Assembly: GCA_905480575.1 (NCBI GenBank)
Contig: CAJQQZ010000010.1
Coordinates: 1-50,046, forward strand
DNA from: an uncultured Alphaproteobacteria bacterium
GTDB lineage: Bacteria; Pseudomonadota; Alphaproteobacteria; UBA7985; CAJQQZ01
Length of the DNA: 50,046 bases
Reading direction: 5' to 3'
This document shows positions 38,412 to 44,185 of this stretch, piece after piece (position 1 is the stretch's first letter; each line of letters opens with the position of its first letter). The notes beneath the pieces were generated by a model. The model saw nothing but the letters and a program-made list of their open reading frames with translations, did not search any database and was not told the origin of the DNA. A program made the position numbers and the translations under genes.

Positions 38412-40358
38412 GTGAAAGGTTTTAAGCTTCACATCGCTCTCATAGCCCTGCTTCTACCTTGCCTGCAAACTGCGAAAGCGGATTGCTTGACCTCTTCGCT
38501 CGACTGCAGTGATCTGGTTTATCAAACCTTCTACGGCACCCCGCCTCTGACCAACGACACTCCTCCGCTCGTCCTATCGGCCCCCACGAAAGATTGGATG
38601 TCCGTTTTAACGTTAGACGGCGACGTTACCTTGATCGGCAGTAGTAAGACTGAGGAAATTGATCTCACCAAAGAGCTCCATGTCACCTCCGGCCTTTATA
38701 GGTTTCAAAGCCACCTCAACTATAATGACACACATGGTATCGAAAGTCGGATCGCTAAGCTTTCCGTCGACGGCGACAATCAACGGTCAACGGTTGGTTT
38801 GTTTAACGCCCACCCAAATAGGTTCATTGCAAGTCGCCGTCTGATTGGTGGCAGCATAGCCAGCACAAGAGACCGTAGATTAGATTTGAGAACTGAAGCC
38901 AGTGCTACGCCTCTCGACATTTATCTTTCTGTTCGCTCTCGAGTTTCGGTTTTCAAAGGTAAAACGCTTCTCTCTGTGAGTAATTACGGCCCTGGTTGGC
39001 ATTCTCTGGACACAGACAACTTTCCCGAGGGTTCTTATGACGTATCGATCCGAATTGAAGATCCTTTCCTCGGTTTGAGAAGAGAGCCACGGTTCTTCTC
39101 TAAAGAAAGCTTGTTACCACCCGCACATTTCAACAGTTTTTATTTGGATGTTGGCATAGCAGAGCAGAAAGAAATGCCCGACCTCACACTTGATCAATTC
39201 GATGAAGGCATTTTTGTTAGAGGACGAAAGGCATTTCGATTAGGCGCAAAAAACGGCCTTGTCTTGGATGTTTCAACCAACATTGACAAGGCGTTGATGG
39301 GTGCGGAAGCGCTCTGGGAGGATAAGAACCTACAGCTCTCTGGCGGCCTTTACGGATCAACCAAAGCTGATTTTGGCTTTTTCGGGCAAGCTCGTATCGA
39401 CGGACCTCAAGACCTCGTTGCAACTGTCGCGTTAGACTATCTCTCGTTAGACAATAATGTCGCTGGCAATGTCGAAAGTCTTTTTGACGACGACAACTCC
39501 AACATTACACCTTCTTTCTTACTCCATTACCCAATCCGCAATTACTACATCGGGATCGGTGGAAATTATAAGTATCACTTCAAAGAACCAGGTATCGAAG
39601 ACAGTTGGTCTATCTCCCCTTTCTTACGCACGCCGTCTTTCAACGTCGGGTCTTATCGAGGGCATATCGACGGAAGACTGGAGCTAACCAATGACGATGC
39701 CTCAATCACAGCCCGCGTGAAATTTCGGCCTAGAAAAGGCGAATCAAAATTTGGTCGGCTTTGGGGCCTTGATTCCACTGATCTGTTCGAAGGCGACGAT
39801 GAAGGTAGTTCACTTTCCGGCTTTGTTGAGACAACAAAGAGAGCCTCTAAAGGTATAAAGGTTGGCGAAGGGTTGGCAAAAATCTCCAGTCGGCTTTCTG
39901 GACGTGATGATCAAGCAAGGCTACGTATGACAGGGCGGTACACGCACCCGACCTTTGTCACTGACCTTTATGTCGAGCCGCGTGTTGGCATTCCAGACAG
40001 TGATAAATCATTTGATTTTGCTTATGGTGCTAGGGGCCGAACCAGCCTGATTACGACACCAAACGGCCGTTGGATCATCGGAGAAAACAAAGTTACGACA
40101 GGCCTGTTGTTACTCTTTAACAAACAACAATATTTCAGCCAGCACGTTGATCACTTTTCAATTTTGGCAAACGGGACGGAACTGGCCCAGGCTTCGCCTG
40201 GAGACCGGACAACCATCGCCCTTTCACCCTACAAAGAGTACAAAATCGAAATATATGGTGTGAACAAAAAGAAAGAGCGCACAAGGAAACCCTACCTTGT
40301 ACGCTCAATTACGATTTATCCGGGACGCGTCACGCCACTTCGGATTGTCGGCGGTTAA
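38412..40358 (+). CDS. Outer-membrane usher-like protein (TcfC/CS1-pili alpha-usher type, tentative)
   Basis: The 648-residue protein has a signal peptide (cleavage near TAKA) followed by a cysteine-containing segment (DCLTSSLDCSD). A central plug-like region (about 160-215) carries LDIYLSVRSRV and LPDG-like FPEGSYDVSIRI. Many barrel-like strands follow, and a C-terminal beta domain ends ITIYPGRVTPLRIVGG. These features recall TcfC/CooC ushers of the alternative chaperone-usher family, but it is shorter than most, and no chaperone or pilin gene is next to it. It starts at GTG 38412, with a TATACT box at 38375-38380. Its stop overlaps that of the opposing DoxX gene. Gene certain, family tentative. 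Confidence 0.75.
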   Translation: MKGFKLHIALIALLLPCLQTAKADCLTSSLDCSDLVYQTFYGTPPLTNDTPPLVLSAPTKDWMSVLTLDGDVTLIGSSKTEEIDLTKELHVTSGLYRFQSHLNYNDTHGIESRIAKLSVDGDNQRSTVGLFNAHPNRFIASRRLIGGSIASTRDRRLDLRTEASATPLDIYLSVRSRVSVFKGKTLLSVSNYGPGWHSLDTDNFPEGSYDVSIRIEDPFLGLRREPRFFSKESLLPPAHFNSFYLDVGIAEQKEMPDLTLDQFDEGIFVRGRKAFRLGAKNGLVLDVSTNIDKALMGAEALWEDKNLQLSGGLYGSTKADFGFFGQARIDGPQDLVATVALDYLSLDNNVAGNVESLFDDDNSNITPSFLLHYPIRNYYIGIGGNYKYHFKEPGIEDSWSISPFLRTPSFNVGSYRGHIDGRLELTNDDASITARVKFRPRKGESKFGRLWGLDSTDLFEGDDEGSSLSGFVETTKRASKGIKVGEGLAKISSRLSGRDDQARLRMTGRYTHPTFVTDLYVEPRVGIPDSDKSFDFAYGARGRTSLITTPNGRWIIGENKVTTGLLLLFNKQQYFSQHVDHFSILANGTELAQASPGDRTTIALSPYKEYKIEIYGVNKKKERTRKPYLVRSITIYPGRVTPLRIVGG

Positions 40359-40813
40359 GACGTCGCCTTCTTAATGAAATGATCAATTGAGATCATGCCA
40401 GGCCCTCTCGCCACAATCCAAAGAGCGATAATCGCCCAGTAGCTATGTAAAAGCCAAGGGTCAGAAAAGACAAACGTCTGGATAACAATCGTCATGCCCA
40501 ACAGTGCCAAGGCACTAAATCTCGTTGCCAAACCAATAACCAACAGGACTGGTAAGATATTCTCCGCGTACGTAGCTAGATAGGCTGCAATCGTAGGAGG
40601 GATAATTGGCAAAGCATAATGATGCTCAAACAGAGCAATTGTTCCTGGAGCGACCTCTAGAAACCCTGCATCAGGGCCTGTAACAATTTTGGTTTGCCCC
40701 GATTTCCAGAACGGAACCGCTAGAATTATCCTGCTTGCCAAAGCCAGCAGCCAATGCGGGATGCACTCAAATAGAGAAATTAGTTTGTTAAACAAGCCTG
40801 TGACTGCGGTCAT
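40355..40813 (-). CDS. bufD: DoxX family membrane protein of the bufferin operon
   Basis: This 152-residue protein has about four membrane spans with the DoxX layout (short soluble start, LASRIILAVPFWKSGQTK, then YAENILPVLLVIGLATR). DoxX proteins are common fourth members of DUF2282-DUF692-DUF2063 operons and may pass electrons or assist copper handling in the membrane. GGGG lies before the ATG, which is 15 bases after bufC. The stop codons of this gene and of the opposing usher-like gene overlap (40355-40358). Confidence 0.88.
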   Translation of the reverse strand: MTAVTGLFNKLISLFECIPHWLLALASRIILAVPFWKSGQTKIVTGPDAGFLEVAPGTIALFEHHYALPIIPPTIAAYLATYAENILPVLLVIGLATRFSALALLGMTIVIQTFVFSDPWLLHSYWAIIALWIVARGPGMISIDHFIKKATS

Positions 40814-40828
40814 AAATACCCCTTTTGT

Positions 40829-41602
40829 TTAGTCATGCAGAGTGGCCTCTGTGAAAGTGTTGCCTAGTAAAAAGTCACTCAGCAACTGTGTTAGATCTAG
40901 TTCAGGCTCCATTGCAACTGCGCTCTCATAAGCAGCGCCCAAGTTCACCCCCTCTTCACAAGCCTGCAGGAACATGAACGCACCCTGTGTCAACTGACGA
41001 ACTTCGACGTCCTGGTCAGGACGAATGACTTGGAGGAAGACTTTTCCTTGGCCTAGATCAACTTCCTGTTCGTCTGCCCCCTCTTGATTGGCCGACCAAA
41101 TCGCATCAATCGGGTAGGCGGATTCAATCAACCGGCTGGTAGGGTGGAGTGTAAAACAAATCTCGGCCATTCTGTCAGGCGGAAAAGATTGTAGTTTTTC
41201 TGGCGGCAATGGCGCGCGATCTGCACCGTTGTAGGCCTCATTCCAGGCCCATTCCAGTCGCGCAATGTCGGGAAGATAGCGTAAAGGTTTTGCAGGTTCA
41301 AAATCCGTTAAAAAGTCAGAGAATTCAGCGCCATACTCTAGAATTCGTGCCATTTTCGGAGGGGCCTGACGAATAAACTCAGCGGCTGTACCACGGAAGA
41401 AATCCTCCCCCACTAATTTGAAGATAACCGGATAAACCGCCGCCAAACTATCAGTCAAAGAATAGAAAACATTGTTGCGGTAAACGTTCAACCGCTCTTC
41501 TGTCAATCCATCGTCTTCGACCCAAGAAGACACTTTGGCCCCAGGAGATGGATCAAAAACTGCTTCTTGAAACTGTGCTTGAAACTCAGCTAACCCTGAC
41601 AC
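40829..41602 (-). CDS. bufC: DUF2063 RiPP-recognition partner protein BufC
   Basis: The 257-residue protein matches DUF2063 (once labelled a DNA-binding domain): N-terminal LAEFQAQFQEAVFDP, NVYRNNVFYSLTDSLAAVYPV, then PDIARLEWAWNEAY. In bufferin pathways BufC pairs with BufB and helps recognise the precursor, so the old DNA-binding label is probably wrong here. I choose GTG 41602 because AAGAAGGA precedes it and it gives the family N-terminus. GTG 41656 is an alternative. It overlaps the end of bufB by 17 bases (or 71) and precedes the DoxX gene by 15. Confidence 0.88.
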   Translation of the reverse strand: MSGLAEFQAQFQEAVFDPSPGAKVSSWVEDDGLTEERLNVYRNNVFYSLTDSLAAVYPVIFKLVGEDFFRGTAAEFIRQAPPKMARILEYGAEFSDFLTDFEPAKPLRYLPDIARLEWAWNEAYNGADRAPLPPEKLQSFPPDRMAEICFTLHPTSRLIESAYPIDAIWSANQEGADEQEVDLGQGKVFLQVIRPDQDVEVRQLTQGAFMFLQACEEGVNLGAAYESAVAMEPELDLTQLLSDFLLGNTFTEATLHD

Positions 41603-42473
41603 CGGATTTTCCTTCTTCCGACGCAACGGCAATGCGGTCTGCTTTCGTGGCTTCACTCATCAACACAGATAGCTCAGGTACATCTGTATCCCACTCAATA
41701 AGCATGGGTTTTGTCCCGATTAAAGAGAGTGCATGAGCATGTAAGTGCCAAACGTCTTCGCAGACAGCCGACCCATGGTCGTCAATGCGCAGTTCCGTGC
41801 CTTTGATATCAAACACCTGATGGCCAGCCAGGTGAATCTCACCTACCAAGTCGCCGGGAATCTCGTTAACGTAGGCCATAGGATCAAATCCATGATTGCG
41901 GGCACAAACGTAAACGTTGTTAACGTCCAATAAGATACCGCACCCACTTCGTTTGGCAGCTTCCACCAAGAAATCGGTCTCCGACATCTCGTTGTTTTTG
42001 AGTGTTAGGTAAGTCGATGGGTTTTCAATCAAGATTTGGCGACCCAAATAGTCTTGAACCTCACTCACATGATCAATGACGATTTCCAGCGCCTCCTTAG
42101 TGTAGAGGAGAGGCAAAAGATCATTCATGAAGATTTCTTGCCCGTGACCCCAAGAGAGATGCTCGGAAATCAAGCCGGGTTGATAACGATCCGTTAGTTC
42201 CTTCAAGGATCTTAAATGATCTTTATCAATCGGGCCTGCTGAGCCAAGAGACATGCCAACACCATGCATCGACAAGGGATAGTCGCGGCGGATGGCTTCA
42301 AGATAGTGATGCGGCGGACCACCAGCGCCCATATAATTCTCTGGATGAACCTCAAACCAACCTAAGTCAGGTGAAATATCGAGAATTTCACGATAATGCT
42401 GAGCCTTAAGACCAATCCCAGCTCTCGCCGGGATTGGATCTTTGACAAAAGTGCAACTGTTGGAGTTTTGCAC
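41586..42473 (-). CDS. bufB: DUF692 multinuclear iron oxidative enzyme BufB
   Basis: The 295-residue TIM-barrel enzyme belongs to DUF692 (MbnB/TglH family), which use two or three irons and oxygen to rewrite cysteines in peptides. Metal-site residues are visible: His70 (SMHGVGMS), Glu104-His105 (ISEHLSWG), Glu150-Asn151 (IENPS), Asp183 and Asn185-Asn186 (LLDVNNVYV), His214 and His218 (EIHLAGHQ), Asp232-His233 and Glu260 (IEWDTD). In bufferin systems it converts precursor cysteines, reported as thiooxazoles that bind copper. The frame is open 86 codons upstream, but that part is leucine-rich noise over bufA. GTG 42473, 10 bases after the bufA stop, is the likely start. Confidence 0.9.
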   Translation of the reverse strand: MQNSNSCTFVKDPIPARAGIGLKAQHYREILDISPDLGWFEVHPENYMGAGGPPHHYLEAIRRDYPLSMHGVGMSLGSAGPIDKDHLRSLKELTDRYQPGLISEHLSWGHGQEIFMNDLLPLLYTKEALEIVIDHVSEVQDYLGRQILIENPSTYLTLKNNEMSETDFLVEAAKRSGCGILLDVNNVYVCARNHGFDPMAYVNEIPGDLVGEIHLAGHQVFDIKGTELRIDDHGSAVCEDVWHLHAHALSLIGTKPMLIEWDTDVPELSVLMSEATKADRIAVASEEGKSGVRVS

Positions 42474-42483
42474 TTTGTTACCC

Positions 42484-42765
42484 TTAGCCTTCGATAGGTT
42501 CGAGGCTACCACCTGTGATCTTGTCACAAGTGCCTTTAAGGACGAGCATCCAAGCATTACCTTGATTATCAACTGTTGAAGTACCTGCACAGCTTGTGCC
42601 TGGACCAGCCGCGCAGTCATTCTTCTCCGCTTTAGCAACACCGTAGCACTTTTCTGTACCAGCAGCCTGAGCAGAAGTAGTTGCAGCAATAGTCGCAGCA
42701 GCAGCCAAAGCGCCAGCAACAGCAACAGCAACAGCAGACGTTTTCTTTACAATTGTCTTATTCAT
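42484..42765 (-). CDS. bufA: Bufferin-type RiPP precursor BufA (DUF2282)
   Basis: The 93-residue precursor has an Ala/Val-rich signal peptide (1-34, ending SAQA), so it is exported to the periplasm after modification, and a core with four cysteines: Cys40 (EKCYGVAK), Cys51 (NDCAAGP), Cys59 (TSCAGTS) and Cys80 (KGTCDKI). This pattern and the GGSLEP tail match DUF2282 bufferin-1 precursors, in which BufB-BufC alter cysteines so that the peptide binds copper. AAGGG lies ten bases before the ATG. It heads the operon bufA-bufB-bufC-doxX. No copper regulator or sigma factor is adjacent. Confidence 0.92.
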
Positions 42766-43015
42766 GGTTTTAGTACCCTTAACTATCAGTTTTCGAGGTG
42801 TGAACTGTGAGGTTCGGACCTTAAGCAGCCCGCCTACAACTATGAAGATAAGCGTGGTTTTAGAACTTGTCTACGCCACAAAGCCTGACAAACACTCACA
42901 TGGCTGTGAGAGACTTGTTATAATGTGGCCACGGTTTTACTGGCAATAGCGGTGGTGACGTCAATCTCCTTCTCCGCTATAGAAATACCTTATCCTGGTC
43001 AAAACCGAGTACTCC
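42766..43015. other. Divergent intergenic region between bufA and the M20 gene
   Basis: These 250 bases form the longest gene-free stretch. They must hold the bufA promoter (minus strand) and any promoter for the amidohydrolase (plus strand). CTCACATGGCTGTGAG at 42896-42911 is a perfect 6+6 dyad (CTCACA/TGTGAG) around TGGC, and TTATAATG follows on the plus strand, a possible -10 box for the amidohydrolase. No small gene was seen. Confidence 0.45.
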
Positions 43016-44185
43016 ATGCCCGTTATCAATCGAATATCTGAGTTCCATGACGAAGCTATTACTTGGAGGCAGAAAATCCATTCTGAGCCCGAAACTGCTT
43101 TCGAAGAGGAAAAAACCTCAGCTTTTGTCGCCTCTCAACTCGAAAGTTTTGGCATTGAAGTTCATCACGGCCTTGCAAAAACCGGTCTTGTTGGCATTCT
43201 TCGCGGTGTGCAAAATGGATCAGAAAAAACGATTGGCTTGAGGGCCGATATGGACGCTCTGCCTATTGAAGAGATAGGCGAACACGCTCACAAGTCCCAA
43301 AACAGAGGTAAAATGCACGCCTGTGGCCACGACGGTCATACGACCATGTTGTTAACAGCTGCGCGCTACCTCGCTGAAACAAGAAACTTCGACGGCACGG
43401 TTCATTTCATTTTCCAGCCGGCAGAAGAACAAGGTGGCGGTGCGAATGTGATGATCGAAGAAGGGCTTTTTGAACGCTTCCCCTGCGATCAGGTTTTTGG
43501 CATTCACAATTTACCAGGGATTGAGGCAGGACACATTTCAACCCGCATAGGGCCGATCATGGCGATCTCTGACACTGTTCAAATAGAGATCGATGGCAAA
43601 GGCGGCCACGGTGCTATGCCGCATGAAACGGTGGACCCCGTTGTAATTGGTAGCTTGATCGTAACCGGCTTACAAACGCTCGTCAGCCGGTCTATCGACC
43701 CAGTCAAAACAGCTGTTGTGACGATCACTCAATTTCATGCCGGTGAAACCAACAATGCAATCCCCAACACGGCCTTCTTAGAGGGAACAATCAGAGCATA
43801 TGAAGAGGAAGTTTATCAAAAGCTTCAAGATGACATCACTCAGATTGCTACATCTCTCGCTGAAGCCCATGGCGCTTCCGTCAAGGTATCCTTTCCTGGT
43901 TCCTATCCAGCGACAGTGAACGCCGAAAATGAAGCCCTGCTCGCTATTGAGGTTGCTAAAGAAGTCATTCCGGTGACCTCGGTTGACGACAACTGTAATC
44001 CCTTAATGGGGGGCGAAGACTTTTCTTACATGACCCAAAAGCGGCCTGGAGCCTTCGTGTTTTTGGGAAATGGTGTTGATTCGCCCAACTTGCACACTGA
44101 AACTTACGATTTTAACGATGACATCATACCTATAGGCGCATCGTTCTGGGCGCGGCTCGTCGAAAAGGCCCTACCAATTAGATAG
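43016..44185 (+). CDS. M20 family amidohydrolase (hippurate hydrolase / N-acyl-amino-acid deacylase type)
   Basis: The 389-residue di-metal hydrolase shows the M20D hallmarks: RADMDALPI, the metal-binding HACGHDGHT, catalytic-region glutamates in QPAEEQGGGA and the late metal histidine in NLHTETYDFND. The dimerisation domain includes GGHGAMPHETVDP. Such enzymes remove acyl groups from amino acids or hydrolyse hippurate-like amides, in the cytosol. The exact substrate cannot be read. It diverges from the bufferin operon and ends at paired hairpins that terminate the opposing unit. Confidence 0.93.
   Translation: MPVINRISEFHDEAITWRQKIHSEPETAFEEEKTSAFVASQLESFGIEVHHGLAKTGLVGILRGVQNGSEKTIGLRADMDALPIEEIGEHAHKSQNRGKMHACGHDGHTTMLLTAARYLAETRNFDGTVHFIFQPAEEQGGGANVMIEEGLFERFPCDQVFGIHNLPGIEAGHISTRIGPIMAISDTVQIEIDGKGGHGAMPHETVDPVVIGSLIVTGLQTLVSRSIDPVKTAVVTITQFHAGETNNAIPNTAFLEGTIRAYEEEVYQKLQDDITQIATSLAEAHGASVKVSFPGSYPATVNAENEALLAIEVAKEVIPVTSVDDNCNPLMGGEDFSYMTQKRPGAFVFLGNGVDSPNLHTETYDFNDDIIPIGASFWARLVEKALPIR

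Follow-up and report, generated by a model that had tools for sequence, protein, structure and literature searches.

The 50,046-nt stretch of alphaproteobacterial DNA analysed here (the window) carries on its minus strand four adjacent genes resembling those of bufferin clusters. Two questions follow: do these genes form a genuine bufferin operon, and what drives their transcription? The best-studied bufferin operon, that of Caulobacter vibrioides, is controlled by the sigma factor SigF, acting at a GTAACC-N16-CGAA promoter, and its partner NrsF, with sigF-nrsF located close to it (PMC3511200). No gene for a sigma factor or a copper regulator was found among the neighbours of the window operon, which encode a TcfC-like protein and an M20 peptidase. 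The explanation that we favour, with a probability of about 85%, is that the locus is a Buf1-class bufferin operon, with thiooxazole chemistry and periplasmic copper binding, whose sigma-70-type transcription would be controlled through a conserved dyad and not by SigF/NrsF.

All four genes were found, in the order bufA, bufB, bufC and bufD, with 10 nt between bufA and bufB, a 17-nt overlap between bufB and bufC, and 15 nt between bufC and bufD. Every product exceeds the Pfam gathering cut-off of its family. BufA, the 93-aa bufferin precursor (42484..42765), scores 88.6 bits against DUF2282 (PF10048; cut-off 22.4), BufB, the MNIO (formerly DUF692) maturase (41586..42473), scores 349.5 bits against PF05114, BufC, a DUF2063 partner protein (40829..41602), scores 80.5 bits against PF09836, and BufD, a 152-aa DoxX-family membrane protein (40355..40813), scores 59.1 bits against PF07681. 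The GTG starts of bufB at 42473 and of bufC at 41602 were inferred from the ribosome sites AAGGGTAAC, overlapping the bufA stop, and GGAAGAAGG, respectively. A terminator-like hairpin of 12 bp followed by a T-rich stretch lies after bufD on the same strand (40275..40306). A genome-wide search revealed a single MNIO, a single DUF2282 and a single DUF2063 gene. The sequence-only reading had proposed a complete bufferin-type operon with a DUF2063 partner and a DoxX protein, on one strand, with gaps or overlaps below 20 bases and no adjacent sigma factor or copper sensor; the family models, the gene spacing, the neighbours and, as described below, the BufC fold and the conserved gene order bear this out. 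On the plus strand, positions 38412-40358 encode a protein of 648 aa that contains a TcfC E-set-like domain; this gene converges with bufD, their coding ends overlap by 4 nt, and the same neighbourhood is present in congener L003.

The core of bufferin clusters consists of these same four genes, and DUF2282 precursors are encoded in 4072 complete genomes (PMC12452194). We confirmed 499 BufB relatives in genome contigs and examined gene order around the best 80 of them. The A-B-C-D order on one strand was found at 72 of these 80 loci, most exceptions being cut by contig ends or carrying tandem bufA genes, and such recurrence among the nearest relatives argues that the layout is not a product of chance. 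Loci L004 and L021, for instance, display tandem bufA genes ahead of a single bufB. By every testable Buf1 feature the operon is one more example of the established bufferin class, and there is nothing exceptional in a bufferin operon that has no sigma factor gene beside it. The bufferin 1 operon of C. vibrioides (CC3254-CC3257) likewise encodes DUF2282, DUF692, DUF2063 and DoxX proteins in the same order. The GIG operons of Cupriavidus metallidurans and Legionella pneumophila, which are gold- and copper-induced, are described in the literature as homologous operons made up of these families (PMC5413113, PMC10304878).

The BufA N-terminus has, by inspection, the hallmarks of a Sec signal: a lysine-rich start (KKTS), a hydrophobic stretch and an AQA|AG cleavage site. 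The protein is 88% identical to BufA of congener L003, and its cysteines lie at positions 40, 51, 59 and 80. The four cysteines and the PF10048 match are as expected of a DUF2282 bufferin precursor. In Buf1 peptides, thiooxazoles arise from the two central cysteines, while a disulphide links the outer pair (PMC12452194). Following this precedent, the residues expected to be modified here are Cys51 and Cys59, which should become thiooxazoles, and Cys40 and Cys80 should form a disulphide. The sequence-only reading had considered mass losses on all four cysteines; by analogy with Buf1, only Cys51 and Cys59 would be modified.

BufB passes the cut-off of the dedicated NCBIfam model NF050167 (MNIO_BufB) with 384.2 bits against 310, and its nearest solved relative is PDB 3bww (E=6.5e-38). 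The metal-site motifs are conserved (H70, E104/H105, E150, D183/N185, H214/H218, D232/H233 and E260), in agreement with the initial description of a DUF692 enzyme retaining all its metal residues. The essential site-3 ligands of HvfB are N175, D242 and H244 (PMC13419390); their equivalents in BufB, assigned by motif, are N185 or N186, D232 and H233.

A sequence search of the PDB with BufC gave no match. An AlphaFold2 model built with 30 relatives in the alignment (pLDDT 92.4) matches over its whole length the folds of TglI from the TglHI complex (8hi7_A, E=2.1e-5; also 8hci_A) and of NGO1945 (3dee, E=1.3e-4). As TglI and NGO1945 are established MNIO partner proteins (PMC12452194), BufC is, judging from its modelled RRE-type fold, a PME-type 1 partner. 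The oxazolin (Hvf) operon of Haemophilus influenzae resembles the window operon in encoding an MNIO, an RRE partner and a DoxX-like protein, and its product is a 5-thiooxazole, but its precursor is of the EGKCG-repeat type, unlike the DUF2282 precursor found here. BufC and BufD score under the cut-offs of the HvfC (53.5 against 142 bits) and HvfX (48.2 against 80 bits) models, and therefore are not of the Hvf subtype.

Published work on the Buf1 class supplies the chemistry and the copper role (PMC12452194, PMC13097082), and by this precedent a pathway can be proposed for the window operon. BufC would hand the precursor BufA to BufB, a presumed di- or tri-iron oxidase that would convert Cys51 and Cys59 into 5-thiooxazoles in the cytoplasm. 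The peptide would then be exported by Sec, losing its signal near residue 34, after which Cys40 and Cys80 would form the disulphide. The mature peptide would bind excess copper in the periplasm, with BufD probably assisting from the membrane. One may ask whether such a peptide chiefly counters some other stress (general oxidative stress, hypochlorite, gold, chromium or cadmium), copper binding being secondary. We regard this as unlikely: while the SigF-controlled Caulobacter homologues do respond to chromium and cadmium (PMC3511200), both copper binding and a growth benefit under copper are reported for Buf1 peptides (PMC12452194).

The Caulobacter type of control has no counterpart in the window genome. 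NrsF (PF06532) had no match in this 99.83% complete genome, the Caulobacter control being positive, and a SigF-type promoter (GTAAC-type -35, CGAA -10) was not found ahead of bufA. Only four Sigma70_r2 matches were detected genome-wide. Among 97 bufA upstream regions, a SigF-type promoter (GTAAC-N17-CG[A/T]A) occurs in eight (reversed control, 0/97). Its carriers include plasmid copies from Rhizobiaceae, in which the dyad described below was not found, and the genomes of two carriers, L024 and L030, encode NrsF. A sequence resembling an ECF promoter, GAACC-N15-CGAAA, does occur just upstream of bufA (42791-42815), and one could imagine the operon being driven from it, in trans, by an ECF sigma factor. 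This is very improbable, since the sequence has no counterpart in the congener, its spacing departs from the SigF consensus GTAACC-N16-CGAA, the pattern is matched 52 times genome-wide against 105 times for the reversed control, and the genome has no NrsF match and only four Sigma70_r2 matches. We consequently rejected this candidate.

The favoured reading instead places transcription at a predicted sigma-70-type promoter, TAGACA-N17-TATCTT (42845..42873, minus strand). By promoter scan alone this sequence ranks no better than chance, yet both hexamers and their 17-nt spacing are kept in the congener (L003/L086). Upstream of it lies a perfect dyad, CTCACA-N4-TGTGAG (42895..42910), likewise conserved in the congener, which is the only copy in the 4.03-Mb genome and never appeared when the window was shuffled 100 times. 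All 12 bases of the dyad are found unchanged ahead of bufA in L056 and L079, which belong to a different lineage. Its core, TCAC-N6-GTGA, was sought in 93 regions ahead of bufA, each 350 nt long (the 97 regions above include four additional plasmid copies). It is present in 22 of the 93, whereas 200 dinucleotide shuffles gave 0.36 on average and never more than 2; related loci are counted here, so that the counts are not fully independent. Only the N6 spacing stands out, the other spacings from 0 to 15 giving 0 or 1. All 22 regions come from alphaproteobacterial records and represent approximately ten lineages once near-identical loci are merged, as estimated from record titles. In many of them, additional half-sites (GTGA or TCAC) are regularly spaced. 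The dyad and the SigF-type promoter never occur together (0/97), 67 of the 97 regions contain neither under strict patterns, and of the 15 dyad genomes that were searched for NrsF, none encodes it. The suggestion that control of this operon may differ from that of known cases is thus supported by the NrsF search, the promoter search and the conserved dyad alike.

In the window, the dyad sits between two divergent genes, the M20 peptidase gene starting at 43016, and a weak promoter-like match on the plus strand overlaps it, so that it might belong to the peptidase gene or serve both genes and not be a bufferin element. We consider this very unlikely: the upstream neighbour of bufA varies among dyad loci (a glutamate-synthase-like protein, an N-formylglutamate amidohydrolase, or DeoR plus an FAD oxidoreductase), yet the dyad mostly lies 125-180 nt from bufA. 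When 11 genomes were scanned with a sequence model of the dyad site, the bufA promoter ranked first in 11/11, a partly circular outcome as most of these sites were in the model; in the window genome the bufA promoter was the only match.

From its conservation, we infer that the dyad is an operator. It lies ~64 bp upstream of the predicted transcription start, which is a usual place for activator sites, and its cognate factor would accordingly act by activation. These results suggest that bufferins can be under SigF-independent control by a putative factor, presumably dimeric, which would bind the TCAC-N6-GTGA dyad. A literature search for the dyad returned no matching regulator. The dyad provides a concrete DNA bait with which to fish out the regulator of SigF-less bufferin operons; with that regulator in hand, the inducing signal of bufferin peptides, be it copper or another, can be asked directly. 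A LysR-type regulator gene divergent from bufA was noticed on an Azospirillum plasmid (L141:1526-2464); it was discarded as a candidate since the dyad is absent from that upstream region.

Dyad matches were also seen ahead of genes other than those of bufferins. These matches are weak (E 0.07 to 1.5) and the sites are to be regarded as leads only. Two TCAC-N6-GTGA dyads 33 nt apart precede a gene for a VTT-domain membrane protein, and they are conserved in two related genomes (L116:2201-2247 and L117:2217-2263). In two Cohaesibacter genomes (L129:1503 and L131:about 1513), a dyad lies between a gene that we take to be pdxH-like and an orthologous secreted repeat protein gene, presumably FG-GAP-like. 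Another dyad (L134:1522) precedes the gene of a secreted protein read by us as DUF547-like; an rnpA-like gene runs divergently there, which is also the arrangement at the VTT site. We lean towards the view that a second, SigF-independent bufferin control exists in many Alphaproteobacteria, in which one putative protein would bind TCAC-N6-GTGA arrays at bufABCD and, in some lineages, at other envelope genes (VTT, FG-GAP-like, DUF547). If so, bufABCD and these envelope genes would form one stress regulon.

BufB relatives were encountered on plasmids as well. They are encoded by 354 plasmid records, at less than 60% identity to the protein of the window, 129 of these being on conjugative plasmids, and their hosts include Escherichia, Klebsiella and Salmonella.
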